Positions 16,375-27,412 of a stretch of DNA of 64,000 nucleotides are shown here, one piece after another; within the stretch, counting starts at the first letter, position 1; every line of letters begins with the position of its first letter. Position numbers and translations under genes: made by a program. The notes under the pieces were generated by a model. The model was given only the letters and a program-made list of their open reading frames with translations. It was not told where the DNA came from and made no database searches. This stretch comes from Limnohabitans sp. Rim8. GTDB taxonomy: Bacteria > Pseudomonadota > Gammaproteobacteria > Burkholderiales > Burkholderiaceae_C. Location of the stretch: assembly GCA_945897795.1 (NCBI GenBank), contig CAMDFT010000001.1, forward strand, positions 1 to 64,000, written 5' to 3'.

Positions 16375-16467
16375 CTTCACCGGGGGTGCCTGGCCGCATG
16401 AGCAGCCTGGGCTGAGACATACCCCTCTCACCTGATCTGGGTTGTGCCAGCGTAGGGAGCGTGATGC
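16375..16467 (+). ncRNA. TPP (thi-box) riboswitch
   Basis: All conserved blocks of the thiamine diphosphate aptamer are present in order: CGGGGGTGCC (16381), GGCTGAGA (16410-16417), ACCC, CCTGATCTGGGT (16431-16442), and GCCAGCGTAGGGA (16446-16458). Outer pairing involves TTCAC before and GTGAT after the core. It lies about 80 nt upstream of thiB, so when TPP is bound it should lower expression of the thiamine uptake operon. No clear intrinsic terminator lies between the aptamer and thiB, which favours control of translation or Rho-dependent termination. Confidence 0.95.
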
Positions 16468-16549
16468 GAATGCCACCCCATCGCCCATGTGCGTTGACCG
16501 GCTTTGCTGTCATGACCCTCGCGGCTTGTTGAGCGAAAGGCAGTTGGCG

Positions 16550-17692
16550 ATGCAAAGGCGGTTTTTGGTGACCGGTACCGGGCTGGCATGGGTGCTGAGC
16601 AGCGCCATGGTCTGGGCTGCGGCAGGGCAGGCGCTGGCACAAAACCCACCCCCAAACCAATCCTCAAGCCCAACGCCAACGCTGCTGCGTGTCATGACGC
16701 ACAGCTCGTTTGATCTGCCCAAACCCTTGCTGGTGCAGTTTGAAAAAGATGCGGGTGTGAAGCTGCAGCTGATCAAAGGCGGCGATGCGGGTGAGATGCT
16801 GAACAAGTTGATCCTGAGCCGTGCCGCGCCCGTGGCCGATGTGGTGTTTGGCATCGACAACACCTTGCTGCCCCGCGCCCTGGCCAGTGGCATCCTCGAC
16901 ACCTACCCCGGCGCGGCCGCTCAAAGCAAAGCCCTGGCGGGCATGGCCGAGGGATCTGCTGCACAACAAGACCTGCCAGCCCCCACTGCCGACAGCGGCG
17001 TGGTGGGTGGGGTGGTGCCGGTGACCCAGGGCTTTGTGAGCCTGAACATCGACAAAGCCTGGTTCCAGAAAAAAGGCCTGGCCCTGCCCCCAAACCTGCA
17101 GGCGCTGGCCCAGCCGGCTTACCGCGATTTGTTGGTGATGCCCAACCCGGCCACCTCCAGCCCCGGCCAAGCGTTTTTGCTGGCCACGGTGGCGGGCTTG
17201 GGCGAAACGGCGGCTTGGGAGTGGTGGGGCCAGATGCGTGCCAACGGCGTGAAAGTGGTCAAGGGCTGGAGCGAAGCGTATTACACCGAGTTCAGCCAAA
17301 ACGGCGGCACCCGGCCCATGGTGGTCAGTTATGCCACCAGCCCTGCCGCCGAGGTGTTCTACAGCAAGGACAAACTGGCCGCATCGCCCACAGCCAATCT
17401 GTTTTTGCCGGGCGGGGTGTTCCGTCAGGTGGAAGGGGCGGCCTTGCTCAAGGGGGCGACGCCATCCGCACGCACGGCGGGCGTGAAGTTCATTGAGTTT
17501 TTGCGTTCTGTGCCGGTGCAGCAGGCGCTGCCAACCAGCATGTGGATGTACGCGGTGCAGCCCGGTGTGCCGCTCGATGCAGTGCTGCAACACGCCCAAG
17601 CGCCCACACATTTTGAGCGATTGCCGCTGCAAACCCTGAGCACGCAAGCCGCCCGCTGGCAGCAGCGCTGGACGCAGGTGGTGCTCAAGTGA
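16550..17692 (+). CDS. thiB: Thiamine ABC transporter, periplasmic binding protein
   Basis: This 380-residue protein is the periplasmic receptor for thiamine or its phosphates. A signal peptide (MQRRFLVTGTGLAWVLSSAM, cut after ALAQ) follows the ATG at 16550, which has AAAGG upstream. The mature part shows VMTHSSFDLPKPLLVQFEKD, ADVVFGIDNTLL and SPGQAFLLATV, as in ThiB/TbpA. The TPP riboswitch upstream and thiP/thiQ downstream settle the function. The family is usually about 330 residues; the excess is a long signal peptide with a proline-rich linker and an insert near residues 120-145. Confidence 0.93.
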   Translation: MQRRFLVTGTGLAWVLSSAMVWAAAGQALAQNPPPNQSSSPTPTLLRVMTHSSFDLPKPLLVQFEKDAGVKLQLIKGGDAGEMLNKLILSRAAPVADVVFGIDNTLLPRALASGILDTYPGAAAQSKALAGMAEGSAAQQDLPAPTADSGVVGGVVPVTQGFVSLNIDKAWFQKKGLALPPNLQALAQPAYRDLLVMPNPATSSPGQAFLLATVAGLGETAAWEWWGQMRANGVKVVKGWSEAYYTEFSQNGGTRPMVVSYATSPAAEVFYSKDKLAASPTANLFLPGGVFRQVEGAALLKGATPSARTAGVKFIEFLRSVPVQQALPTSMWMYAVQPGVPLDAVLQHAQAPTHFERLPLQTLSTQAARWQQRWTQVVLK

Positions 17693-17711
17693 CAGGGCCA
17701 GGGTCTTGGCG

Positions 17712-19397
17712 ATGAATCCCCCAAAGCGGCCAGTTCTGCGCTCAAGGCACAACGCCCTGTGGCTGGCGGCTGTGCCGCTGCTGTTTGCCTTGGTGTTTTT
17801 GGCGCTGCCGGTCGCGCGCTTGCTTTTTGAAGGCTTGTGGGGTGAACCGGTGCCAGGCTTGGCGCTGGCCGACACCGGCCCTTGGTGGCGCGATGCGCAC
17901 CTGCAGTGGCGCGTGGGCTGGACGCTGGTGCAGGCTTTGGTCACCTGCGTGGTTTGTCTGGTGCTGGGTTTGCCCATGGCCTGGGTGCTGGCACGCCTGG
18001 ATTTTGCAGGTCGGCTGTGGTGGCAGCGCGCTTTGCTGCTGCCTTTTGTGGTGCCTACTTTGGTGGCCGCGCTGGGTGTGTTGTCACTTTGGGGGCCACG
18101 CGGTTGGTTGGGCGAGCCTTTGGCGCAAGCGGGTGTGTCTGTGCAAGACGGCCCTTGGTTGCTGCTGCTGGGCAATGTGTTTTTTAACCTGGGTTTGGTG
18201 GTGCGCGCAGGCAGCGACGGCTTGGCGCAGGTCAGCGCCCAACAGGTGGCACTGGCGCGTACCTTGGGGGCCACGCCATGGCGGGCGTTTTGGCGGGTCG
18301 AGTGGCCGGTGGTGGCCCCTTGGTTGGCCTCGGCGGTGTGCTTGGTGTTTTTGTATTGCTTTACCGGCTTTGGCTTGGCTCTGGTGTTGGGTGGACAGCA
18401 CTGGGCCACGGTGGAGGTGGAGATTTACACCCTGATCGCGCACGAGCTGGCGCTGGGGCCGGCGGCGGCCTTGGCCGTGGCCATGCTGGCGCTGACCGGG
18501 GGCGTGGCTTGGGCTTACGCCTGGGTGGAGCGCCGCTTGGCGAATCCGGCGCGCATCACCCCGGTGGCGCGCCGCCCTTTGAGGGGGGCGGGCCAGTGGA
18601 TCTGGGCGCTTTGGGTGCTGGCGCTGGGCACTTGGGGCTTGCTGTGCGGCGCGCCCTTGTTGGCGCTGTTGGGCCAAGGCCTGCGCGCTGCGGTGTGGGG
18701 GCAGGGCGCGGCAGTGTGGGCCGATCCGGACACCTGGTTGGCTTTGCGCAACATGCTGCAGTTCACTGGCATGGCGCTGGTGCTGGCCACGGCTTTGGGT
18801 TTGCTGCATGCACTGGCCGGGCATGCCTTGCGGCCGTGGCCGCGCTGGGCGTTGGCCTGGCGGGCCAGTGCGTATGCGCCCTTGGTGGTGTCGCCGGTGG
18901 CGCTGGCTTTTGGTTTGCTGCTGTTGTACCCGCAGTGGTTGGCCAGCTTGCCGCTTTTGGTTGCGGCTTATGCGTTGCTGGCTTACCCGTTTGTGGCCAA
19001 AGCCCTGACGGCAGCGCTCGACGCCATGCCCGAGCACTACGCCCAAGCCGCCGCCACTTTGGGGGCGCGGCCGCTGCGGGTGTTTTGGCGCGTCACGCTG
19101 CCCCTGGTGGCTTTGGCCTTGCGCCGGGGCGTGGCCTTTGCCGCTGCCACCATGCTGGGCGAGTTTGCGGTTTCGCTTCTGCTGTCGCGCCCCGAGTGGC
19201 TGACCCTGACCACCTTGATCTACCAGCGCTTGGGCCGCCCCGGCTCGGCCAATCTGGACGCGGCGCTGGTGCTGTCGGCCAGCTTGATGCTGTTGGCGCT
19301 GCTGGTGTTTATGGCCATCGAAGGGCGACCCGATCGGGTCGCTTCACAGGCCCGGCGCACGGGCACTGCGGCCAGCGCAACCAACCCTTTGGCCTAA
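17712..19397 (+). CDS. thiP: Thiamine ABC transporter permease
   Basis: This 561-residue inner-membrane permease has two fused BPD_transp_1-type halves, each with about six helices, as in ThiP. The EAA-like coupling loops read LARTLGATPWRAFWRVEWPV in the first half and AAATLGARPLRVFWRVTLPL in the second; they contact ThiQ. The ATG at 17712 is chosen over a TTG six bases earlier. It follows thiB by 19 nt and precedes thiQ by 24 nt under the same riboswitch. The high G+C makes long shadow frames on both strands here. Confidence 0.93.
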   Translation: MNPPKRPVLRSRHNALWLAAVPLLFALVFLALPVARLLFEGLWGEPVPGLALADTGPWWRDAHLQWRVGWTLVQALVTCVVCLVLGLPMAWVLARLDFAGRLWWQRALLLPFVVPTLVAALGVLSLWGPRGWLGEPLAQAGVSVQDGPWLLLLGNVFFNLGLVVRAGSDGLAQVSAQQVALARTLGATPWRAFWRVEWPVVAPWLASAVCLVFLYCFTGFGLALVLGGQHWATVEVEIYTLIAHELALGPAAALAVAMLALTGGVAWAYAWVERRLANPARITPVARRPLRGAGQWIWALWVLALGTWGLLCGAPLLALLGQGLRAAVWGQGAAVWADPDTWLALRNMLQFTGMALVLATALGLLHALAGHALRPWPRWALAWRASAYAPLVVSPVALAFGLLLLYPQWLASLPLLVAAYALLAYPFVAKALTAALDAMPEHYAQAAATLGARPLRVFWRVTLPLVALALRRGVAFAAATMLGEFAVSLLLSRPEWLTLTTLIYQRLGRPGSANLDAALVLSASLMLLALLVFMAIEGRPDRVASQARRTGTAASATNPLA

Positions 19398-19421
19398 TAG
19401 CCAGCACAACCGCTTTGAACC

Positions 19422-20081
19422 ATGCTTGAACTGCGACACATTCACCACCACTGGATCGGCCCCAACGGTCAGCCCCAGCCTTTGCTGAACGACGTGAACT
19501 TGCAAGTGCCACGCGGGCAAACCGTGGCCTTGCTGGGGGCCTCGGGCAGCGGCAAAAGCACGCTGCTCAAAATCATTGCCGGTCTGGAAGCGCCCGAGTC
19601 GGGCAGCGTCTGGCTTGATGGGCAGGACATCACCGCCTGGCCCCCTGAGCGGCGTCGGCTGGCACTGATGTTTCAGGACTATGTGCTGTTTCCGCACCTG
19701 AACGTGCAAGACAACGTGGCCTTTGGCCTGGTGGAGCAAGGTGAGCCGCGTGCCCAGGCACGAGAGCGTGCCAATGGTTTGTTGCAACGCTTTGGCCTGG
19801 CAGGGCGGGGCCGCGACCCGGTGGCCACTTTGTCTGGCGGCGAACAGCAGCGCGTGGCGCTGGCGCGGGCAGTCATCACCGAGCCTCGGGGGCTGTTGCT
19901 CGACGAGCCTTTTTCTGCACTGGACGCCGAGATGCGTGACAGCCTTCGCGCCGAATTTGCCCAGCGCATTGCCGAGCACGGCATGCGCGCAGTTTTGGTC
20001 ACGCACGACGAGGCCGAAGCCCGCGCCATGGCCAGCGCTGCCTGGCGTTTGCAAGGCGGCGCGTTGGTCAGTTTGTGGTGA
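19422..20081 (+). CDS. thiQ: Thiamine ABC transporter ATP-binding protein
   Basis: This 219-residue ATPase drives thiamine import through ThiP. It has Walker A GASGSGKST, Q-loop MFQDYVLFPHL, signature LSGGEQQRVALARAV, Walker B LLLDEPFSALD and switch VTHDEAEA. The length matches ThiQ, which lacks the C-terminal regulatory extension of many importers. It is the last gene of the riboswitch-controlled thiBPQ operon and converges with the exonuclease gene 45 nt downstream. No terminator hairpin with a T run is seen in that gap. Confidence 0.92.
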   Translation: MLELRHIHHHWIGPNGQPQPLLNDVNLQVPRGQTVALLGASGSGKSTLLKIIAGLEAPESGSVWLDGQDITAWPPERRRLALMFQDYVLFPHLNVQDNVAFGLVEQGEPRAQARERANGLLQRFGLAGRGRDPVATLSGGEQQRVALARAVITEPRGLLLDEPFSALDAEMRDSLRAEFAQRIAEHGMRAVLVTHDEAEARAMASAAWRLQGGALVSLW

Positions 20082-20126: not shown

Positions 20127-20720
20127 TCAAAGCCCCAGCGCCTGCCAGACCCGGATGGCGGCATACGCGTCATTGGCGGCGTAGACCAATTGAGCTTCGC
20201 TTAAGCGGGCGTTGGCCCAGTTGCTGGTGGCGGCTTTTTTGGACTTGATGAAGCGCTGGTTGAACAGCACGGCCACCGCGCCCTTGACGCCCATGTCCTT
20301 GCGGTAACCGCGTTCGCGAAAAATGGTGTTGAGCTCCAGGATGCCTTGCGGCTCGATGCCCAGCTTGTGCACGATGCGCTTGCGGTCGTCGCCCAGACCA
20401 AAACCGGCTTTGACAACGCCGCTGCAGGCCAACAATTGGGCAGCAACCGCGCTGCATTCCGGGTCGTGCAACTGAAAAACCCAGGCCCGCTCGGAGGTGG
20501 ACAACTGCAAGATGTGCGGCCCGTCTGACTGCTCGCCCACCTTGAAAGTGGGCTTGGACTCGGTGTCAAACCCCCAGGCAGACGATTGCATGAGGGCATC
20601 CCATGCACTTTGCGCCTGCTGGCCGGTGGTGACGAGTGTGATGCGGTCCAGACCCAGTCGCTCAAAAGGCGGGAGCAGGGCGATGGCGTCTTTGTCGGGA
20701 GTGTGGAGCTGGGTGGACAT
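20127..20720 (-). CDS. RNase D-like 3'-5' exonuclease (DEDDy domain)
   Basis: This 197-residue protein is a single DEDDy exonuclease domain. Exo I reads GFDTES (D52, E54), exo II lies in KAGFGLGDDRK, and exo III in LVYAANDAYAA with the tyrosine and aspartate expected for the DEDDy subgroup. There is no HRDC domain, so it is shorter than RNase D and resembles the stand-alone 3'-5' exonucleases common in beta- and gammaproteobacteria. It likely acts on RNA or DNA ends; the substrate is not known. It is convergent with thiQ and divergent from the Bug gene at 20871, separated by 150 nt. Confidence 0.9.
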   Translation of the reverse strand: MSTQLHTPDKDAIALLPPFERLGLDRITLVTTGQQAQSAWDALMQSSAWGFDTESKPTFKVGEQSDGPHILQLSTSERAWVFQLHDPECSAVAAQLLACSGVVKAGFGLGDDRKRIVHKLGIEPQGILELNTIFRERGYRKDMGVKGAVAVLFNQRFIKSKKAATSNWANARLSEAQLVYAANDAYAAIRVWQALGL

Positions 20721-20870: not shown

Positions 20871-21848
20871 ATGGTAATGAATTTTTTCAAAGGACTTTCT
20901 GTGTTGTTGGCCCTCGGCTTGTCTGCGGCAACTTGGGCGCAGGGGACTTATCCCCAAAAGCCGGTCACTTTGATCGTGCCATTTCCGGCAGGCGGTATCG
21001 CTGATTTGTCGGCCCGTGCGCTCAAGCCTTCGCTGGACAAAGCTTTGGGCCAGCCGGTGACGATCGTGAACCGGCCAGGGGCCTCGGGTGCCATTGGTGC
21101 GGCTGCGGTCGCCAATGCCACGGCAGACGGTTACACCCTGATGTACACCTTGTCGAGTGTGGCCAGCGTTCCGGAACAGGCCATCCTCAATGGCCAAAAG
21201 GCACCTTTCACGCTGGACCAATTCGTGCCCGTGGCCCGGGTCACCGTGGATGTGGTCAGCTTGGTGGTGCGTGCGGACAGCCCTTACAAAACCTACCAAG
21301 ACTTTGCGGCTGCCTTGAAAGCCAATCCCAAAGGCATGACATATTCGTCCAGCGGTAACTACGGCATCAGCCATTTCCCGGCCGAGATGCTGCTGGCGGC
21401 CACACAAACCGAGGCGCGTCACATACCTTACGCGGGTGGGGCACCCATGTTGACGGCCTTGATGGGCGGCCAGGTCGATTTCAACATCCCTGTTCGCACG
21501 CTCGCCTTGCCGCACGTTCAAAGCGGTCGACTGCGTTATTTGGCCATGTACGGCGCCAAGCGCTGGGCGCAAGCACCGGATGTGCCGACCCTCGCAGAAT
21601 TGGGCGTGCCGATCGACTTTGTGCCTTGGACCGGTTTGTTTGCGCCTGCGGGCACACCCGCCGATGTTTTGGCCGCTTTGCGCCGGGCCTTGCGTGCGGC
21701 ATCTCAGGACAATCAATTCGTCGAGACGGTGGGTAAAAGTTCCGCCGGAGAAATTGCTTACCTGGACGGCAGCGAGCTGGAGACCTTCTGGAAGGCCGAT
21801 CTGGCCCGCACATCCGTCACCATTCAGCGCATCGGACGCATTCAATGA
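20871..21848 (+). CDS. Bug-family substrate-binding protein coupled to a molybdenum hydroxylase
   Basis: This 325-residue periplasmic receptor starts at ATG 20871, seven nt after AAGGAG. A signal peptide (FFKGLSVLLALGLSAATWAQ) precedes the Bug signature KPVTLIVPFPAGGIADLS, followed by IVNRPGASGAIGAA and HIPYAGGAPMLTALMGG. The stop overlaps the start of the molybdopterin subunit gene (ATGA), so receptor and enzyme are translated together. The Bug protein probably captures the hydroxylase substrate or a precursor, perhaps an aromatic or N-heterocyclic acid; this is inferred from the coupling. No tctAB genes are near. Confidence 0.92.
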   Translation: MVMNFFKGLSVLLALGLSAATWAQGTYPQKPVTLIVPFPAGGIADLSARALKPSLDKALGQPVTIVNRPGASGAIGAAAVANATADGYTLMYTLSSVASVPEQAILNGQKAPFTLDQFVPVARVTVDVVSLVVRADSPYKTYQDFAAALKANPKGMTYSSSGNYGISHFPAEMLLAATQTEARHIPYAGGAPMLTALMGGQVDFNIPVRTLALPHVQSGRLRYLAMYGAKRWAQAPDVPTLAELGVPIDFVPWTGLFAPAGTPADVLAALRRALRAASQDNQFVETVGKSSAGEIAYLDGSELETFWKADLARTSVTIQRIGRIQ

Positions 21849-24034
21849 CGGCAGCGGCCCCGCGAGGGTTTACCTTTGACCGCAATGACGGTCGTACGGT
21901 TTTGCCTGGCAATTTGCACACCAACCGCCAATTGGCGCAATGGCTGGATTTCTCTCAGCCAGGTCGGGTGCGTGTCTTCACAGGCAAGGTGGAACTGGGG
22001 CAGGGCATTCTGACGGCCTTGTCCATCATTGCGGCCGATGAACTCGATGTGGATTTGGAACAGGTGCACATCGTCAGTGCCAGCACCCTGGAAGGGCCTG
22101 ACGAGGGCATGACCAGCAGCAGCATTTCAGTCCAGGATTCCGGATCGGCCATTCGCCACGCTTGTGCCGAAGTGCGTTTTCTGGCCCTTCAACAAGCGGC
22201 CCGTCACCATGGCTTGCCCGCCGACACCTTCGGCGTTGAGCAAGGGCGCTTCATGGACGCCCAAGGGCGCGCGCTGGGGGGTTATTGGGATTGGCTCAAG
22301 GACATCAGCCTGCATCGGGAATACGAGGGTTTGGCCCAACCCAAGCCGGTGGACGCGCTCAAGCTGCACGGTCACGGCAAAGTCCGCCGCATTGACCTGT
22401 CTGACAAGATCATGGGCCAGCCCCGGTTCATCCACGATTTGCGCATGCCCGGCATGCGCCACGGGCGGGTCCTGCGCGCGCCATCGCTGACGGCCCAATT
22501 GGCCCATCCCGCGCAACCCGTGCCGGTCGAAGTGTTGGATGCCATGGCCCAGTCTGCCATTGACTTGGTGGTGGATGGGCGCTTTATGGGCATCGTGGCC
22601 GCCTCCGAGCGCGAGGCGGATGCCGCACTGGCCCAGTTGCAAGCGCAAGTGGCTTGGCGCGAGTCGGCCAATTTGCCCGACATGCATGCCTTGGCCGACT
22701 TCCTGCGCAGCGCCCCGCATGAAACCACTTACCCCATTCAAAAAGGGGAAGTCCTTGGCGCTGACGATGACGGGGTGAGCTTGTCCCGTGAATACCTCAA
22801 GCCTTTCATTGCCCACGCCTCGATTGGTCTTTGCTGCGCACTGGCCCAATGGAATGGCCAGACTTTGCAGGTCTGGACCCACAGCCAGGGCATTCAGAAT
22901 CTGCGCGATGACCTGACCAAAGCCTTGGGGCTGGACAAACAGGCGATCGTGATGCGGCATGTGGAAGGGGCCGGATGTTATGGCCACAACGGTGCCGACG
23001 ATGTGGCGTTTGACGCGGCCCTTTTGGCCATGGCCCAGCCGGGTGATCCTGTGCGGGTCGTCTGGTCCCGCTCAGACGAACTGTCGCAAGCGCCGCTGGG
23101 CAGCGCCCACCTGGTCTCGCTCAGGGCCCGTTTGAACGAACAGGGGCGCATCAGCCACTGGCACCATGAACTGTGGGCCAACGGGTACAGCTCCCGGCCG
23201 GGTCGCGCGTTGATTCCCACCTTGCTGGGGGCGTCGCAGCGCGCCCAAGGGCAGCCCGCGCCTATTGCCATCAACCCGCCGCTGGCTGCAGGTGGGGGCT
23301 CGGACCGCAATGCCGTTCCGGGTTATTCGTTTGACAACACCCATGTGGTGAACCACCGGCTGACGGTCATGCCGATTCGAACCTCGGCCATGCGGGCCTT
23401 GGGGGCGTTTGCCAATGTGTTTGCGATCGAGTCCTTCATGGACGAGCTGGCCCATGCCAGCAGACAAGACCCTTTGCAGTTTCGAAAATGGCACATGGAG
23501 GACGCCAGAAGTCTGGCCGTTTTGAATGCCGTGGTCGAGCGCAGCACCTGGTGGCATTTGCCCAAAGCCGAAGGTGTCGGCCACGGGCTGGCCTGGGCCC
23601 GCTACAAAAATACTTCTGCATGGTGCGCTGTGCTGGCACGCGTGCAGGCTGGCGAGACGCTGCGTGTGTTGCAGCTCGATGTGGCCGTTGATGTGGGCCG
23701 TGTGGTGGACTTGGACGGTGTGATCAACCAAACCGAAGGCGGTGCCTTGCAAGGCATGAGCTGGGCCCTGAAAGAGGCCGTTCTGTTTGACCGCACACGC
23801 ATCACGACCCAAAGCTGGGCCGATTACCCCATTTTGCGTTTCAGCGAAGTGCCCGAATTGACCATCCATGTGCTGGACCAACCGGAGCAACCGTCGCTGG
23901 GGGCGGGCGAGTCGGTGCAAGCCCCCGTGGCAGCCGCTTTGGGCAATGCCTTGTTCGATGCCCTGGGGGTGCGTGTTCGCCACTTGCCCTTGTCGCAGGA
24001 CCACATCCTTCAGGCGCTGAATGCGCCGCAATGA
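21845..24034 (+). CDS. Xanthine dehydrogenase-family molybdopterin-binding large subunit
   Basis: This 729-residue protein is the molybdenum-cofactor subunit of a hydroxylase of the isoquinoline 1-oxidoreductase beta (IorB)/nicotinate dehydrogenase type. It opens with VRVFTGKVELGQGILTALS, has SSSISVQDSG and VEGAGCYGHNGADDVAFDAA in the cofactor region, and ends with GAGESVQAPVAAALGNALFD, where the glutamate of GAGE is the likely catalytic base. Such enzymes insert water-derived oxygen into N-heterocycles or aldehydes. There is no Tat signal peptide, so it should be cytoplasmic. The 2Fe-2S partner is two genes downstream, and there is no FAD subunit. Substrate is not determinable. Confidence 0.9.
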   Translation: MTAAAPRGFTFDRNDGRTVLPGNLHTNRQLAQWLDFSQPGRVRVFTGKVELGQGILTALSIIAADELDVDLEQVHIVSASTLEGPDEGMTSSSISVQDSGSAIRHACAEVRFLALQQAARHHGLPADTFGVEQGRFMDAQGRALGGYWDWLKDISLHREYEGLAQPKPVDALKLHGHGKVRRIDLSDKIMGQPRFIHDLRMPGMRHGRVLRAPSLTAQLAHPAQPVPVEVLDAMAQSAIDLVVDGRFMGIVAASEREADAALAQLQAQVAWRESANLPDMHALADFLRSAPHETTYPIQKGEVLGADDDGVSLSREYLKPFIAHASIGLCCALAQWNGQTLQVWTHSQGIQNLRDDLTKALGLDKQAIVMRHVEGAGCYGHNGADDVAFDAALLAMAQPGDPVRVVWSRSDELSQAPLGSAHLVSLRARLNEQGRISHWHHELWANGYSSRPGRALIPTLLGASQRAQGQPAPIAINPPLAAGGGSDRNAVPGYSFDNTHVVNHRLTVMPIRTSAMRALGAFANVFAIESFMDELAHASRQDPLQFRKWHMEDARSLAVLNAVVERSTWWHLPKAEGVGHGLAWARYKNTSAWCAVLARVQAGETLRVLQLDVAVDVGRVVDLDGVINQTEGGALQGMSWALKEAVLFDRTRITTQSWADYPILRFSEVPELTIHVLDQPEQPSLGAGESVQAPVAAALGNALFDALGVRVRHLPLSQDHILQALNAPQ

Positions 24035-24049
24035 CATGGCCTTATTGAC

Positions 24050-24811
24050 ATGACCGCATTGACATCGACCCTGGTGGACATTTGCAGTGCTGGTGCTGGG
24101 CGCGTCTGGTTAGAGCAATGCTTGGCCTTGCCGCAATGGGTGCAAATGGCGCAGTACCGCACACGCTTTGCAGCTTTGCAAAGCACTTTGGACGAGGTGA
24201 ACCGCCGTCTGGAGGAGGGACAAGACTGCCACCTGTGCGTGCTCACCCCCGATGTCATCCGCGGTTTGCAAAGCCGCTGGCCCGATCGCATCGACGCGCT
24301 GGGGTCTTTGGGCCAAGCAGAGACCGGATGGGTGAGCTTGGCAGGCGATGGCCAGTTCTATGATGTCGCCACCGAGCAAGCCTTGCGCCAGACCCTGATG
24401 TCTTTGGACTTGTTGCTGGTGCCGGATCTGCAGCAGTCCTCGGGTGGGCGGCATCTGCAGCGTGTGCTCGACCAACTGGCTATTCCTGCAGCGGACATGC
24501 CCGCCGTGCAGTCCTATGCCGGTGGCGCGCAAGCGGTGGCGGCCTTGTCTGCCCATGCCGGTCAGCGTGTGATGGCCTGCGCCCAGTCCACCGAGGTTCA
24601 AGCGGCGTCTCACGCCCACTATCTGGGCCCTTTTCCGGCCCCGCATGGTTTGTTCACTGAATACGCTGTGGCTGCTGTGCGCCCCCATACAGATAACCAT
24701 GACCCTGAGGCCCAAACGGCCTGGTCAGTGGCCTGCGATCTGGCACGTTACCTGTGCTCACCCAACCAGCAAGCCCAGCGCCAGGCGCTGGGTTTTGTTG
24801 GATTGTCCTGA
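24050..24811 (+). CDS. Solute-binding-like (ModA-like) protein without signal peptide
   Basis: This 253-residue protein resembles the periplasmic binding fold of molybdate-type receptors: a Rossmann-like start, DCHLCVLTPDVIRGL (the usual DVVVLTP-like strand), and LLVPDLQQSSGGRHLQRVLDQL, a phrase common in ModA-like proteins (sSGxhl..vl..lgi). It has no signal peptide or lipobox and so should stay in the cytoplasm. It sits between the large and 2Fe-2S subunits of the hydroxylase, 15 nt after the first and 18 nt before the second. It might help cofactor insertion or bind the substrate or product as a sensor; neither is shown by sequence. Similar proteins are known near xanthine dehydrogenase-type genes. 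Confidence 0.7.
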   Translation: MTALTSTLVDICSAGAGRVWLEQCLALPQWVQMAQYRTRFAALQSTLDEVNRRLEEGQDCHLCVLTPDVIRGLQSRWPDRIDALGSLGQAETGWVSLAGDGQFYDVATEQALRQTLMSLDLLLVPDLQQSSGGRHLQRVLDQLAIPAADMPAVQSYAGGAQAVAALSAHAGQRVMACAQSTEVQAASHAHYLGPFPAPHGLFTEYAVAAVRPHTDNHDPEAQTAWSVACDLARYLCSPNQQAQRQALGFVGLS

Positions 24812-24829
24812 TAGAACCCGAGACAGACC

Positions 24830-25294
24830 ATGATCACCATCAACGCCAAGAACATTGCCCTAACAGCGCCCGACAAAACCCCTTTGCTCAGCTTCTTGCG
24901 CAACGAGTTGGGCTTGTCGGGCCCCAAATTGGGCTGCGGTGAAGGCGAGTGCGGCGCTTGCATGGTGCTGGTGGATGGACGGCCCCAAACGGCCTGCAAT
25001 TTGCCACTTTGGGCAGTCAAAGGCCATGCCGTGACCACGCTCGAGGGCTTGGGCACGGTGGAGCAACCCCATGCTTTGCAACAAGCCTTTATCGAAGAAA
25101 ACGCAGGCCAGTGTGGCTATTGCCTGAGCGGCATTTTGGTCAGTGCCAGCGCCTTGTTGCTGCACACGCTCGAGCCGACGCGGGCGCAGATTTGTCAGGC
25201 CTTGGACAAACACCTGTGCCGCTGTGGGGCGCATGAACGCATCATCCGCGCTGTTCAGCGTGCTGCACAAATGGGCAAGATGGCCGCAGCCTGA
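24830..25294 (+). CDS. 2Fe-2S small subunit of the molybdenum hydroxylase
   Basis: This 154-residue protein carries two 2Fe-2S clusters that take electrons from the molybdenum site. The plant-type ferredoxin cluster uses C36, C41, C44 and C56 (GCGEGECGAC). The second, helical cluster uses C95, C98, C130 and C132 (GQCGYC and HLCRCG). The length and cysteine pattern are standard for CoxS/IorA-type subunits. It lies 18 nt after the ModA-like gene and completes an operon of receptor, large subunit, accessory protein and small subunit. Small subunits usually precede large ones; here the order is reversed. The final electron acceptor is unknown. Confidence 0.95.
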   Translation: MITINAKNIALTAPDKTPLLSFLRNELGLSGPKLGCGEGECGACMVLVDGRPQTACNLPLWAVKGHAVTTLEGLGTVEQPHALQQAFIEENAGQCGYCLSGILVSASALLLHTLEPTRAQICQALDKHLCRCGAHERIIRAVQRAAQMGKMAAA

Positions 25295-25331: not shown

Positions 25332-26258
25332 TCAGCGGCGTTTGGGGTCTTTTTTTGGCGGTGCAGGTTTTTTGCGCTGCGCCCGCTCGGCGTCGGCCTT
25401 TTTCCCTTCGGCCAGCCAGATGGCAAATTCTTTCGGTGTTTCCAGTGTCAAACGGCCCAAGGCCGCTGACCGAAAATCGTGGATCACGATTTCGGCGGCC
25501 TTGGTGGTGTTGACCCGTCCGCCGCTTTGGATTGCACCGCGTTGTCGGGCAATGGCTTCGAGCAATGTTTCGTCGGTGTGGCTGGCCACGTCTTGCACCT
25601 TGTAGCGCTCGGTGATGGCCTGCGGGTAGCGCGGGATCAAATAATGGAGCAACTCCAGCGCCACCACCTCTTCGTCAAAAGCATTCACGCCAATCGCGCC
25701 GCTGGCGGCCAGGTTGTAACCGCTTTGCTCGACGATGATGCGCGGCCACAGCACGCCGGGGGTGTCGTACAAATAAAAGTCATCGGCCAGCGTGATGCGC
25801 TGCTCCAGTTTGGTTACGCCCGCTTCGTCGCCGGTCTTGGCGGCGCGTTTGCCTTTGAGGGTATTGATCAAGGTGGACTTGCCCACGTTGGGGATGCCGC
25901 AAATGAGCACGCGCAGGGGCTTGACCATGCCGCCCCGGTTGGGGGCCAACTGGCGGCTGGCATCAATCAAGGCCTTGGCGGGTGACACCACGCTCGTGTC
26001 CATGCCCAAAGCGCTCACGCCGGGCAGGGCGTTGTAGTGCGCCAGCCAGGCCGCGGTTTGCACCGGGTCGGCCAAGTCTTGTTTGCTCAGGATTTTCAGG
26101 GCGGGCTTGCCTTCGATCAGATCGGCCAGCATGGGGTTGGCACTCGACCCCGGCAGGCGGGCGTCCAGCATCTCAATGACGACGTCAATGTCTTTGATGC
26201 GCTCCCCAATCGCCTTGCGCGTGAGGTGCATGTGTCCGGGAAACCATTGAATCGCCAT
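25332..26258 (-). CDS. rbgA: Ribosome biogenesis GTPase YlqF/RbgA
   Basis: This 308-residue circularly permuted GTPase helps late maturation of the 50S subunit. The G motifs come in the permuted order: G4-like LSKQDLADP near residue 60, G1 GIPNVGKST near 130, and G3 DTPGVLWP near 175. It starts MAIQWFPGHMHLTRKA, the conserved N-terminus, at ATG 26258; the open frame extends upstream without similarity. The C-terminus is rich in lysine and arginine, suitable for rRNA contact. It is convergent with the 2Fe-2S subunit gene (37-nt gap). The 139 nt upstream to the toxin gene hold nothing recognised. Confidence 0.93.
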   Translation of the reverse strand: MAIQWFPGHMHLTRKAIGERIKDIDVVIEMLDARLPGSSANPMLADLIEGKPALKILSKQDLADPVQTAAWLAHYNALPGVSALGMDTSVVSPAKALIDASRQLAPNRGGMVKPLRVLICGIPNVGKSTLINTLKGKRAAKTGDEAGVTKLEQRITLADDFYLYDTPGVLWPRIIVEQSGYNLAASGAIGVNAFDEEVVALELLHYLIPRYPQAITERYKVQDVASHTDETLLEAIARQRGAIQSGGRVNTTKAAEIVIHDFRSAALGRLTLETPKEFAIWLAEGKKADAERAQRKKPAPPKKDPKRR

Positions 26259-26397: not shown

Positions 26398-26724
26398 TTA
26401 TTTGCGCCCGTAGGTACTGTCGTGGTCGGCAGACACCGTCAACAATCGCATGAAATCTCCGTCACGGTGGGCTGTGCATCGGCGGCTTTGGGTGATGCGC
26501 AATGAATAGATGGCGGCAATCCCTGGCGGTGGTTTGACACTCGCGATCTTTTCCCATTTCAGGCCGTTGTCGCGGTAGAGCTGGTTCCAGCTCATTTGCC
26601 GGATTTTCCGCAAGGTGTCTATGGCTGCGTTGCGTTCCGGTTTTTGTAAACCGAACAGGTTTTCTTGAAACACCGGGTTGTTCAAATCCAGGCGAATGGG
26701 GTTGTCGTTTGCGCCCATCGCCAT
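26398..26724 (-). CDS. RelE-like toxin of a type II toxin-antitoxin pair
   Basis: This 108-residue protein has the compact helix-helix-sheet layout of RelE/YoeB-like mRNA interferase relatives: LDLNNPVFQENLFGLQKPER, the helix DTLRKIRQMSWNQLYRDNGL, then YSLRITQSRRCTAHRDGDFM and the terminal LLTVSADHDSTYGRK. It is basic, as expected of a toxin. The ATG at 26724 overlaps the antitoxin stop as TGATG; a GTG three bases earlier is also possible. The RITQ and LLTVSADHD motifs recur in proteobacterial proteins annotated as toxins of this group. RNase activity is inferred from family only. Confidence 0.75.
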   Translation of the reverse strand: MAMGANDNPIRLDLNNPVFQENLFGLQKPERNAAIDTLRKIRQMSWNQLYRDNGLKWEKIASVKPPPGIAAIYSLRITQSRRCTAHRDGDFMRLLTVSADHDSTYGRK

Positions 26725-27014
26725 CACTCGCTGGGGGACGCTGACGACAAAACAGAGGACAAAAGGGCGTCGGTTTGTGAGTCCGAGGTCGGGTTATTTG
26801 CAGACCAAGCCAAAGCCTTTGAAAGGTCGGCTGCGGCTTGCGGTTCATGCAGCCACCGTTCGTTGTCCGGAATGACGGTGGCCGTGCGAATCAGCCAAAC
26901 GCCGGCCTCTTTTTCTTCGACCAAAACCTGCCGACCTGCAAACTGTTTGCCGAGCGAAATTTGGCCGTTGGCACCGATGATTTTGACGCTGGGGGGTGAA
27001 GTGATGGCGGGCAT
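26724..27014 (-). CDS. AbrB/MazE-like antitoxin
   Basis: This 96-residue protein starts at ATG 27014 after AGGAG. Its N-terminal half (VKIIGANGQISLGKQFAGRQ to VWLIRTATVIPDNERWLH) has the swapped-hairpin pattern of AbrB/MazE DNA-binding domains. The C-terminal half (ADLSKALAWSANN and a Ser-rich tail) is probably the flexible toxin-binding arm. It is the first gene of a two-gene operon with the RelE-like toxin, coupled by TGATG. A short palindrome at 27049-27061 upstream may be its operator. Confidence 0.75.
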   Translation of the reverse strand: MPAITSPPSVKIIGANGQISLGKQFAGRQVLVEEKEAGVWLIRTATVIPDNERWLHEPQAAADLSKALAWSANNPTSDSQTDALLSSVLSSASPSE

Positions 27015-27034
27015 GGCAACTCCTGATTAAATTC

Positions 27035-27346
27035 CTAAATTCGTGCGGCACTAAAATAGTGTAATGCACAAGGCCGTGCTGTCAAGGTCTTCCGTTGGCG
27101 ATGGACTGCGGCCAAGATCAGGGTGCGCCGGTTCAACGGGGCGATGGTCGCTTGGGAAGTCGAACGCATTCTCCCCCACGTTTGCCCAATGGCCAGCAAG
27201 GCCGACCCTAAGCCGATTTTTGGGGCTACCGCATTTTCCAAAATTAGGCGAATCTCGGCTTCAGTGCTTCGGCCATGCTGGGCAACGCGCATTTTGAGGG
27301 CTCGGTGCGTGGCCTCGGGCAGGTTTCTGACGGTGACAGATATCAC
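27035..27346 (-). CDS. Orphan FitA/VapB-like ribbon-helix-helix antitoxin, tail probably frameshifted
   Basis: The GTG start at 27346 follows AAAGGAG by 5 nt and gives the canonical FitA start ISVTVRNLPEATHRALKMRV and GRSTEAEIRLILENAV. After GLGSALLAIGQTWG the 103-residue frame becomes low-character and Arg-rich. One nucleotide later in the next frame the sequence reads ENAFDFPSDHRPVEPAH, closer to the end expected for such antitoxins, so an indel in the GGGGG run there is likely. No PIN-domain toxin gene (FitB/VapC) follows; the next gene is the AbrB-like antitoxin. It is therefore an orphan and possibly degenerate. Confidence 0.65.
   Translation of the reverse strand: MISVTVRNLPEATHRALKMRVAQHGRSTEAEIRLILENAVAPKIGLGSALLAIGQTWGRMRSTSQATIAPLNRRTLILAAVHRQRKTLTARPCALHYFSAARI
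27049..27061. promoter_or_regulatory. Palindrome upstream of the toxin-antitoxin operon
   Basis: CACTAAAATAGTG is an inverted repeat (CACTA/TAGTG around AAA) 35 nt before the antitoxin start, a position where type II antitoxins usually bind their own promoter. Binding is not shown. Confidence 0.4.
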
Positions 27347-27412
27347 GATCACTCCTTTTAAAAATAAATAAATTATTATTAATATTCGATTTGACATCAA
27401 ATCTGCCGTTTG

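Follow-up and report, generated by a model that had tools for sequence, protein, structure and literature searches.

What does a protein with the fold of the molybdate-binding protein ModA do when it has no signal peptide and its gene lies between the two subunit genes of a molybdenum (Mo) hydroxylase? The question is raised by a run of four genes in Limnohabitans sp. Rim8, within a stretch of 64,000 nucleotides (positions 1 to 64,000 of contig CAMDFT010000001.1, assembly GCA_945897795.1) that is referred to here as the window. An original prediction, made from the letters of the DNA, had described a receptor coupled to a hydroxylase in a self-contained uptake-and-oxidation unit, with a binding-protein fold reused inside the cell. 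The four genes, their positions and their order were confirmed; their Pfam families agree with the assignments, and all four are intact and co-directional:

20871 to 21848, plus strand: Bug/TctC periplasmic carboxylate-type receptor with a signal-like N-terminal segment (Pfam TctC, N-terminus and orthologues)
21845 to 24034, plus strand: molybdopterin subunit of a two-subunit Mo hydroxylase, 729 amino acids, GAGE motif at 686 (MoCoBD_1/2)
24050 to 24811, plus strand: signal-peptide-less ModA-fold protein, 253 amino acids, a predicted isomerase/tautomerase with Q179-x-T181-E182 and H135 (profile, model and motif)
24830 to 25294, plus strand: [2Fe-2S] small subunit, 154 amino acids, cysteines 36/41/44/56 and 95/98/130/132 (Fer2_2)

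We read the run as a small catabolic operon in which the signal-less ModA-fold protein would be an isomerase or tautomerase of an unsaturated or keto carboxylate, working beside the hydroxylase, and we put the probability of this reading at slightly under one half. Co-transcription, enzymatic activity, proton-shift chemistry, the substrate, the order of the steps and their operation in one pathway are what we infer. The Bug receptor would bind a carboxylate in the periplasm and pass it to a membrane partner encoded elsewhere. The two-subunit hydroxylase, which has no evident export signal, would oxidise the imported compound in the cytoplasm, and the ModA-fold protein would shift a proton along the unsaturated or keto carboxylate before or after hydroxylation. 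Somewhat more tentatively, at least two signal-less lineages may have put the ModA fold to use as cytoplasmic proton-shifting isomerases of carboxylate and aromatic catabolism, the window type being specialised further to act on either the substrate or the product of the hydroxylase next to it. An enzyme was not among the roles first proposed (sensor, cofactor chaperone or product carrier), and it fits the wider gene neighbourhoods better than those do. What stands of the first interpretation is a fold apparently used inside the cell and linked to Bug and Mo genes; self-contained uptake is unsupported and a cofactor chaperone unlikely. Among the titles and abstract openings listed, with subscription papers mostly outside the scope, no cytoplasmic ModA-fold protein was found assigned to Bug or Mo-hydroxylase operons.

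The neighbourhoods were surveyed in two sets of relatives. With the window protein alone as the query, relatives were found in 41 of 299 same-family genomes, its own included, while a profile built from 24 members (A1) found at least 470 in the genome collection; the 80 top-ranking loci were retained. The same-strand upstream neighbour of the 81 genes in these loci that scored above 200 bits, which belong to clade A, was a Bug gene in 57 cases, a Mo or iron-sulfur (FeS) hydroxylase gene in 22 and another gene in 2. Within a set of 30 loci (L002-L031), the same-strand gene directly upstream was Bug in 23, the Mo subunit in 4 and neither in 3. Genes for FAA hydrolases and GntR/FCD regulators were frequent near clade-A loci. 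A genus related at the phylum level only showed the order FeS-Mo-ModA in all four loci examined, with Bug first in three, and a fifth distant locus (L209) is Bug-ModA.

A hydrophobic 12-mer before the core was present in none of 94 clade-A rows (92 distinct), none of 19 proteins of a second set, group B, and 26 of 28 other relatives (the R set), as judged by a crude test that depends on a hydrophobicity threshold and on called starts, which may lie too far downstream. Both of the 28 that lack it are themselves group-B proteins (L205 and gene 14 of L218), and in another group-B protein, L300, the core is preceded by 54 residues that include a segment narrowly short of the threshold. The reuse of a binding-protein fold inside the cell thus appears to hold, in a wide family lacking the hydrophobic N-terminal segment. 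The window genome itself carries a further clade-A copy (L080, G000:C93) in the order Bug-Bug-ModA. Elsewhere in the survey, three loci (L213, L214 and L215) hold side-by-side convergent pairs of ModA relatives with signal-like N-termini, scoring 94-173 bits. The cluster of one record titled Akkermansia muciniphila (L108) groups with Limnohabitans-type sequences, and that assembly is probably mislabelled or contaminated.

An isomerase role was suggested by the company that group B keeps. A gallate cluster of Paraburkholderia (L205) consists of genes for a dioxygenase, an amidohydrolase and LigK, followed by a group-B gene. With the product of that gene as the query, matches at E ≤ 1e-25, some of them to signal-bearing kin, came from 60 of the 300 genomes searched in the order. 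The 20 best loci (L291-L310) and one from genome G215 were inspected, 21 in all; a called group-B protein was found in 19 of the 20, L305 giving none. The same run contains homologues of LigJ, LigK or both in 14 of the 21 loci, at 70-85% identity to the L205 proteins, and the group-B match is no more than 200 nucleotides from LigJ or LigK in 12. The 4-oxalomesaconate isomerases LigU and GalD have the PrpF fold. A search for PrpF (PF04303) in the 21 group-B genomes found a single match in each of 14 genomes and nothing in the other 7. On contigs with a LigJ/LigK-group-B cluster, none of these matches came closer to it than 46 kb, and three genomes that are 99-100% complete and carry LigJ, LigK and group B (G091, G114 and G995) gave none anywhere. 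Since no PrpF match was found near these clusters or, in the latter cases, in the genome, the isomerase slot is open with a ModA-fold gene beside it, and the ModA-fold gene seems to fill the 4-oxalomesaconate isomerase step. The LigJ/LigK and PrpF counts indicate, for group B though not for the pathway of the window, that a signal-less ModA-fold gene may occupy an isomerase slot. The window genome has a group-B copy as well (L300, G000:C55), with no LigJ or LigK in the stretch examined.

Similar arrangements occur further afield. A protocatechuate cluster of Acidovorax carolinensis has a group-B gene, then LigJ-LigK and further 4,5-cleavage genes, and in Pseudarthrobacter and Arthrobacter a group-B-like gene comes after LigJ/LigK and the 4,5-cleavage genes. 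pmdU is presumably the first gene of the pmd operon of Comamonas sp. E6, a place that corresponds to that of the A. carolinensis group-B gene, and PmdU, by its position only, may belong to group B. If so, group-B isomerase activity may already be in print; the window protein, in contrast, lies outside group B. Signal-less ModA-fold genes lie in plasmid protocatechuate 4,5-cleavage clusters of Actinobacteria and Burkholderiales (7001-7699 of L311, 7013-7690 of L312 and 6001-6699 of L313), where they are annotated "substrate-binding domain-containing"; they are possibly candidates for 4-oxalomesaconate isomerase. By position, the group-B-like gene of L311 is pcaT, which one report describes as an "ABC-type molybdate transport system" gene, last in a protocatechuate 4,5-cleavage cluster reported as one transcription unit (PMC8431788). 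Two further sources name ligU, pmdU and galD together for the isomerase step (PMC12314914) and list galD in Delftia, so that some relatives may keep a PrpF-type gene (PMC13141888).

Among enzymes of comparable chemistry, LigU, GalD and TarA of the PrpF superfamily share the proposed reaction, but neither the window protein nor the window genome (87% complete) has a PF04303 match. The aconitate isomerase AIS of Pseudomonas sp. WU-0701, said to have been described by Yuhara in 2015, is reportedly a ModA-like, signal-bearing isomerase of an unsaturated tricarboxylate. The aconitate isomerases TarA and TbrA are PrpF proteins and hence no precedent for the ModA fold (PMC11495376). Cytoplasmic catabolic enzymes appear to be present in a large family that goes under the annotations "substrate-binding domain-containing" or "molybdate transport". 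If true, this would fill a missing step in protocatechuate and gallate clusters that have no LigU/GalD-type gene and provide a regular partner for many orphan Bug receptors, and a binding-protein fold would have become an enzyme more than once.

For the window protein itself, the argument for an isomerase rests on fold, motif and context. Its only Pfam match up to E 1 was SBP_bac_11, below the cut-off (E 0.0035, 17.6 vs 25 bits), and it had no NCBIfam match up to E 1, the TIGR01256 ModA family included. Its score is 101.5 bits with a family profile from which it was left out; this is the fair figure, as a score of 239 bits came from a profile containing it; the scores of the other A1 members likewise come from a profile that holds them. 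With the same profile, clade-A sequences outside it score 208-298 bits and signal-bearing relatives 98-173, and the window protein falls in the latter range. The fold, seen in an AlphaFold2 model (predicted local distance difference test score, pLDDT, 93.1), is that of ModA (best Z 19.6, root-mean-square deviation 3.5-3.7 Å over 221 residues). A model of a clade-A protein reached Z 26.2 against solved ModA, and the A1 profile matches ModA 1amf at E 1.5e-15. The Q-x-[S/T]-E motif, which aligns with Tyr170-x-Ser-Asp of ModA, is kept in 6 of 6 proteins of the window type, 92 of 94 of clade A and 23 of 23 of group B.

The main rival is that the protein binds without catalysis, as a cytoplasmic buffer or carrier of the imported acid or the hydroxylated product, or as a sensor for the operon's regulator. 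We consider this unlikely, though well ahead of the chaperone and export explanations taken up below. The ModA fold is a binding fold, and the fold list of the window model includes LysR-type effector domains (CynR, 2hxr/3hfu, Z 15.5) as well as binders of carboxylates and phosphocarboxylates (citrate-binding MctA, 7f6p, Z 16.8; Peb3, 3fj7, 16.4; AcfC, 4jb7, 16.2); the linkage to Bug in 57 of 81 cases would fit a shared ligand. However, no DNA-binding domain was seen, and a binder leaves group B in LigJ/LigK clusters that lack PrpF unexplained. The fold lists of the window and clade-A models include no title that we recognised as an isomerase of this fold, which is not evidence either way.

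How firmly the ModA-like gene belongs to its unit was assessed in 90 genomes of the genus, the window's own included, many of which are incomplete. The Mo subunit had a match at E ≤ 1e-60 in 58 of them and one at least 80% identical in 11 (own included). A check for the conserved four-gene order, suggested with the original prediction, found Bug-Mo-ModA-FeS in 5 of the 89 other genomes (L250-L254), between the same two flanking genes, which lie outside the unit:

20127 to 20720, minus strand: left flank, 3'-5' exonuclease domain, RNase D-like (Pfam DNA_pol_A_exo1)
25332 to 26258, minus strand: right flank, ribosome-binding GTPase, YlqF/RbgA-like (Pfam MMR_HSR1)

The full order and flanks are therefore present in six genomes (the window, G705, G753, G739, G714 and G727). 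The predicted 4-nucleotide overlap of Bug with the Mo subunit is there, with the sequence ATGA, and recurs in 8 of 8 other loci inspected for it. Bug is 94-99% identical across five orthologous loci. Mean pairwise ratios of nonsynonymous to synonymous substitution (dN/dS) in the six genomes were 0.053 for Bug, 0.115 for Mo, 0.197 for the ModA-like gene and 0.130 for FeS, one FeS row having its stop codon included. The conserved order and flanks in L250-L254, together with dN/dS of 0.05-0.20, are more than chance. A decaying remnant was ruled out for the ModA-like gene by its dN/dS of 0.197 and by the lack of internal stops in 6 of 6 copies.

Several results weigh against an isomerase tied to this hydroxylase. 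The absence of the ModA-like gene from other copies of the cluster, named beforehand as grounds for doubt, was found in 4 of the 11 genomes with a Mo subunit at least 80% identical (G745, G755, G726 and G752), while the gene is kept in six and the contig ends inside it in the remaining one (G742). No close ModA-like copy was found elsewhere in those four assemblies; the clusters of G745 and G755 are Bug-Mo-FeS, and those of G726 and G752 are Mo-FeS and have no close Bug. The ModA-like gene is likewise absent from the Mo-FeS clusters of three relatives at 57-58% (L260-L262). Because of these cases, it is plain that the hydroxylase genes persist without the ModA-like gene, which, being absent from 4 of the 11 closest clusters, looks like an added module. 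The Q-x-[S/T]-E motif is also found in 22 of 26 signal-bearing relatives and is therefore no mark of cytoplasmic enzymes. The window protein is at most 27% identical to any other row of the tree, where its branch of 5.9 leaves the placement unsure, and it has lost several clade-A motifs. The 80 kept loci are not independent, as 13 of their titles name Limnohabitans. On the group-B side, 7 of the 21 loci have no LigJ or LigK in the stretch examined, and two group-B rows fall among signal-bearing relatives in the tree. Group B is not demonstrated to be the nearest kin of the window protein, so the transfer of function rests on fold, motif and context, and the activity of these ModA-fold proteins is a prediction from sequence. 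The very long branch of the window protein kept the tree from assigning it to clade A, to group B or to the signal-bearing relatives.

These absences, and the divergence of the window protein from clade A, are what a passenger would predict, that is, a ModA-like gene inserted between the hydroxylase subunits and functionally unrelated to them. We hold this to be improbable, to a degree just beyond that of the non-catalytic binder, since the order is kept in six genomes with a dN/dS of 0.197 and, in another branch of this hydroxylase family, clade-A relatives are neighbours of the enzyme genes.

One of the roles first proposed, that of a chaperone supplying the hydroxylase with molybdate or molybdenum cofactor, would suit the ModA fold and the position beside a Mo enzyme. 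The side-chain oxyanion ligands of ModA are Ser12, Ser39 and Tyr170. The positions aligned to them are A/L/Q in the window protein and A/V/Q in 23 of 23 relatives, so the ligand positions are replaced. The likeness to ModA (TIGR01256; 1amf, 3gzg, 4rxl) is thus one of fold; the window protein differs in lacking a signal peptide and an accompanying modBC and in having other residues at the side-chain ligand positions. It has no match to TIGR01256, and the first A1 member falls below the curated cut-off of that family (36.7 bits, the cut-off being 62.5). In our best explanation the protein is not a molybdate carrier. With 57 of 81 relatives directly 3' of Bug and 22 following a Mo/FeS gene, and with group B beside aromatic ring-cleavage genes in 14 of 21 loci, the chaperone is weakened to a very unlikely explanation. 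Least credible of all is that the protein serves a transporter as a binding protein in the periplasm, its start having been called wrongly or its export being unusual. Some relatives do carry a signal (26 of 28 in the R set), but no clade-A row has the hydrophobic segment, the run has no permease gene, and in all six orthologues, the window's among them, a stop lies no more than five codons 5' of the ATG, so that, as had been foreseen for this protein, there is no room for a signal peptide and correcting the start cannot supply one.

The Mo subunit matches MoCoBD_2 (E 3.7e-34) and MoCoBD_1 (E 1.7e-22), with 8gy3_C as the closest solved chain (E 4.6e-43), and the small subunit matches Fer2_2 (E 2.8e-23) with the eight expected cysteines of two 2Fe-2S clusters. 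The molybdenum-cofactor-binding domains, a GAGE-type glutamate in the Mo subunit and the eight cysteines are the features of the xanthine oxidase family. No gene for a flavin adenine dinucleotide (FAD) or cytochrome subunit lies in the run of four, in line with the first description; the lack of an FAD subunit is usual for two-subunit Mo hydroxylases of the isoquinoline-1-oxidoreductase type, which this enzyme presumably resembles. It shares with that type the Mo and 2Fe-2S subunits, but differs in having the small subunit last, a ModA-like gene between the subunits and a Bug gene overlapping Mo.

The unusual position of the small subunit, correctly noted at the outset, proved to be a trait of a clade. 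All FeS-last rows form a single clade in the Mo tree (14 rows, 100/100), the same grouping recurs in the FeS tree (13 rows, 100/97), and in both trees the clade shares an FeS-first sister (L068-L070). This topology suggests that a single swap placed the small subunit last and that the ModA-like gene joined later; it was probably lost again in G745 and G726. The window-type rows and their FeS-first relatives form their own clade in the Mo tree (17 rows, 100/98), to which the rows from clade-A loci do not belong, and the pairing of ModA with Mo may therefore have arisen more than once. In two loci (L144 and L147) a second FeS-Mo pair, which belongs to a distant branch of the hydroxylases, comes after a Bug-Mo-ModA run. 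An origin of the window small subunit as the FeS of such a second pair was rejected, since both trees group the window with the other FeS-last pairs and their L068-L070 sister.

The receptor matches TctC (E 1.3e-58), and its N-terminus, MVMNFFKGLSVLLALGLSAATWA-Q, is signal-like as judged by eye. Self-contained uptake was not supported: the run has no membrane component, permease gene or modBC, and the five TctA matches of the genome are all on contigs other than the window's (TctB was not searched for). Against these five, the genome (87% complete) has 59 TctC/Bug matches. Such a surplus of TctC over TctA is already known (PMC5812351). With orphan Bug/TctC receptors, as portrayed in that work and another (PMC5812351, PMC11452294), the window receptor shares the TctC domain, the signal-like segment and the lack of an adjoining TctA, but differs in overlapping a Mo-hydroxylase gene by 4 nucleotides. 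Outside the unit, 5' of the left flank, ATP-binding cassette transporter genes lie on the plus strand at 16442-20081 of the window, encoding an SBP_bac_6/8 binding protein, a permease with two BPD_transp_1 stretches and an ATPase. Beyond the right flank, between the GTPase gene and a LysR gene, three small open reading frames lie on the minus strand at 26398-27400, one of them encoding a FitA-like ribbon-helix-helix antitoxin (PF22513); they have no tblastn match in L250-L262 and are probably a recent insertion.

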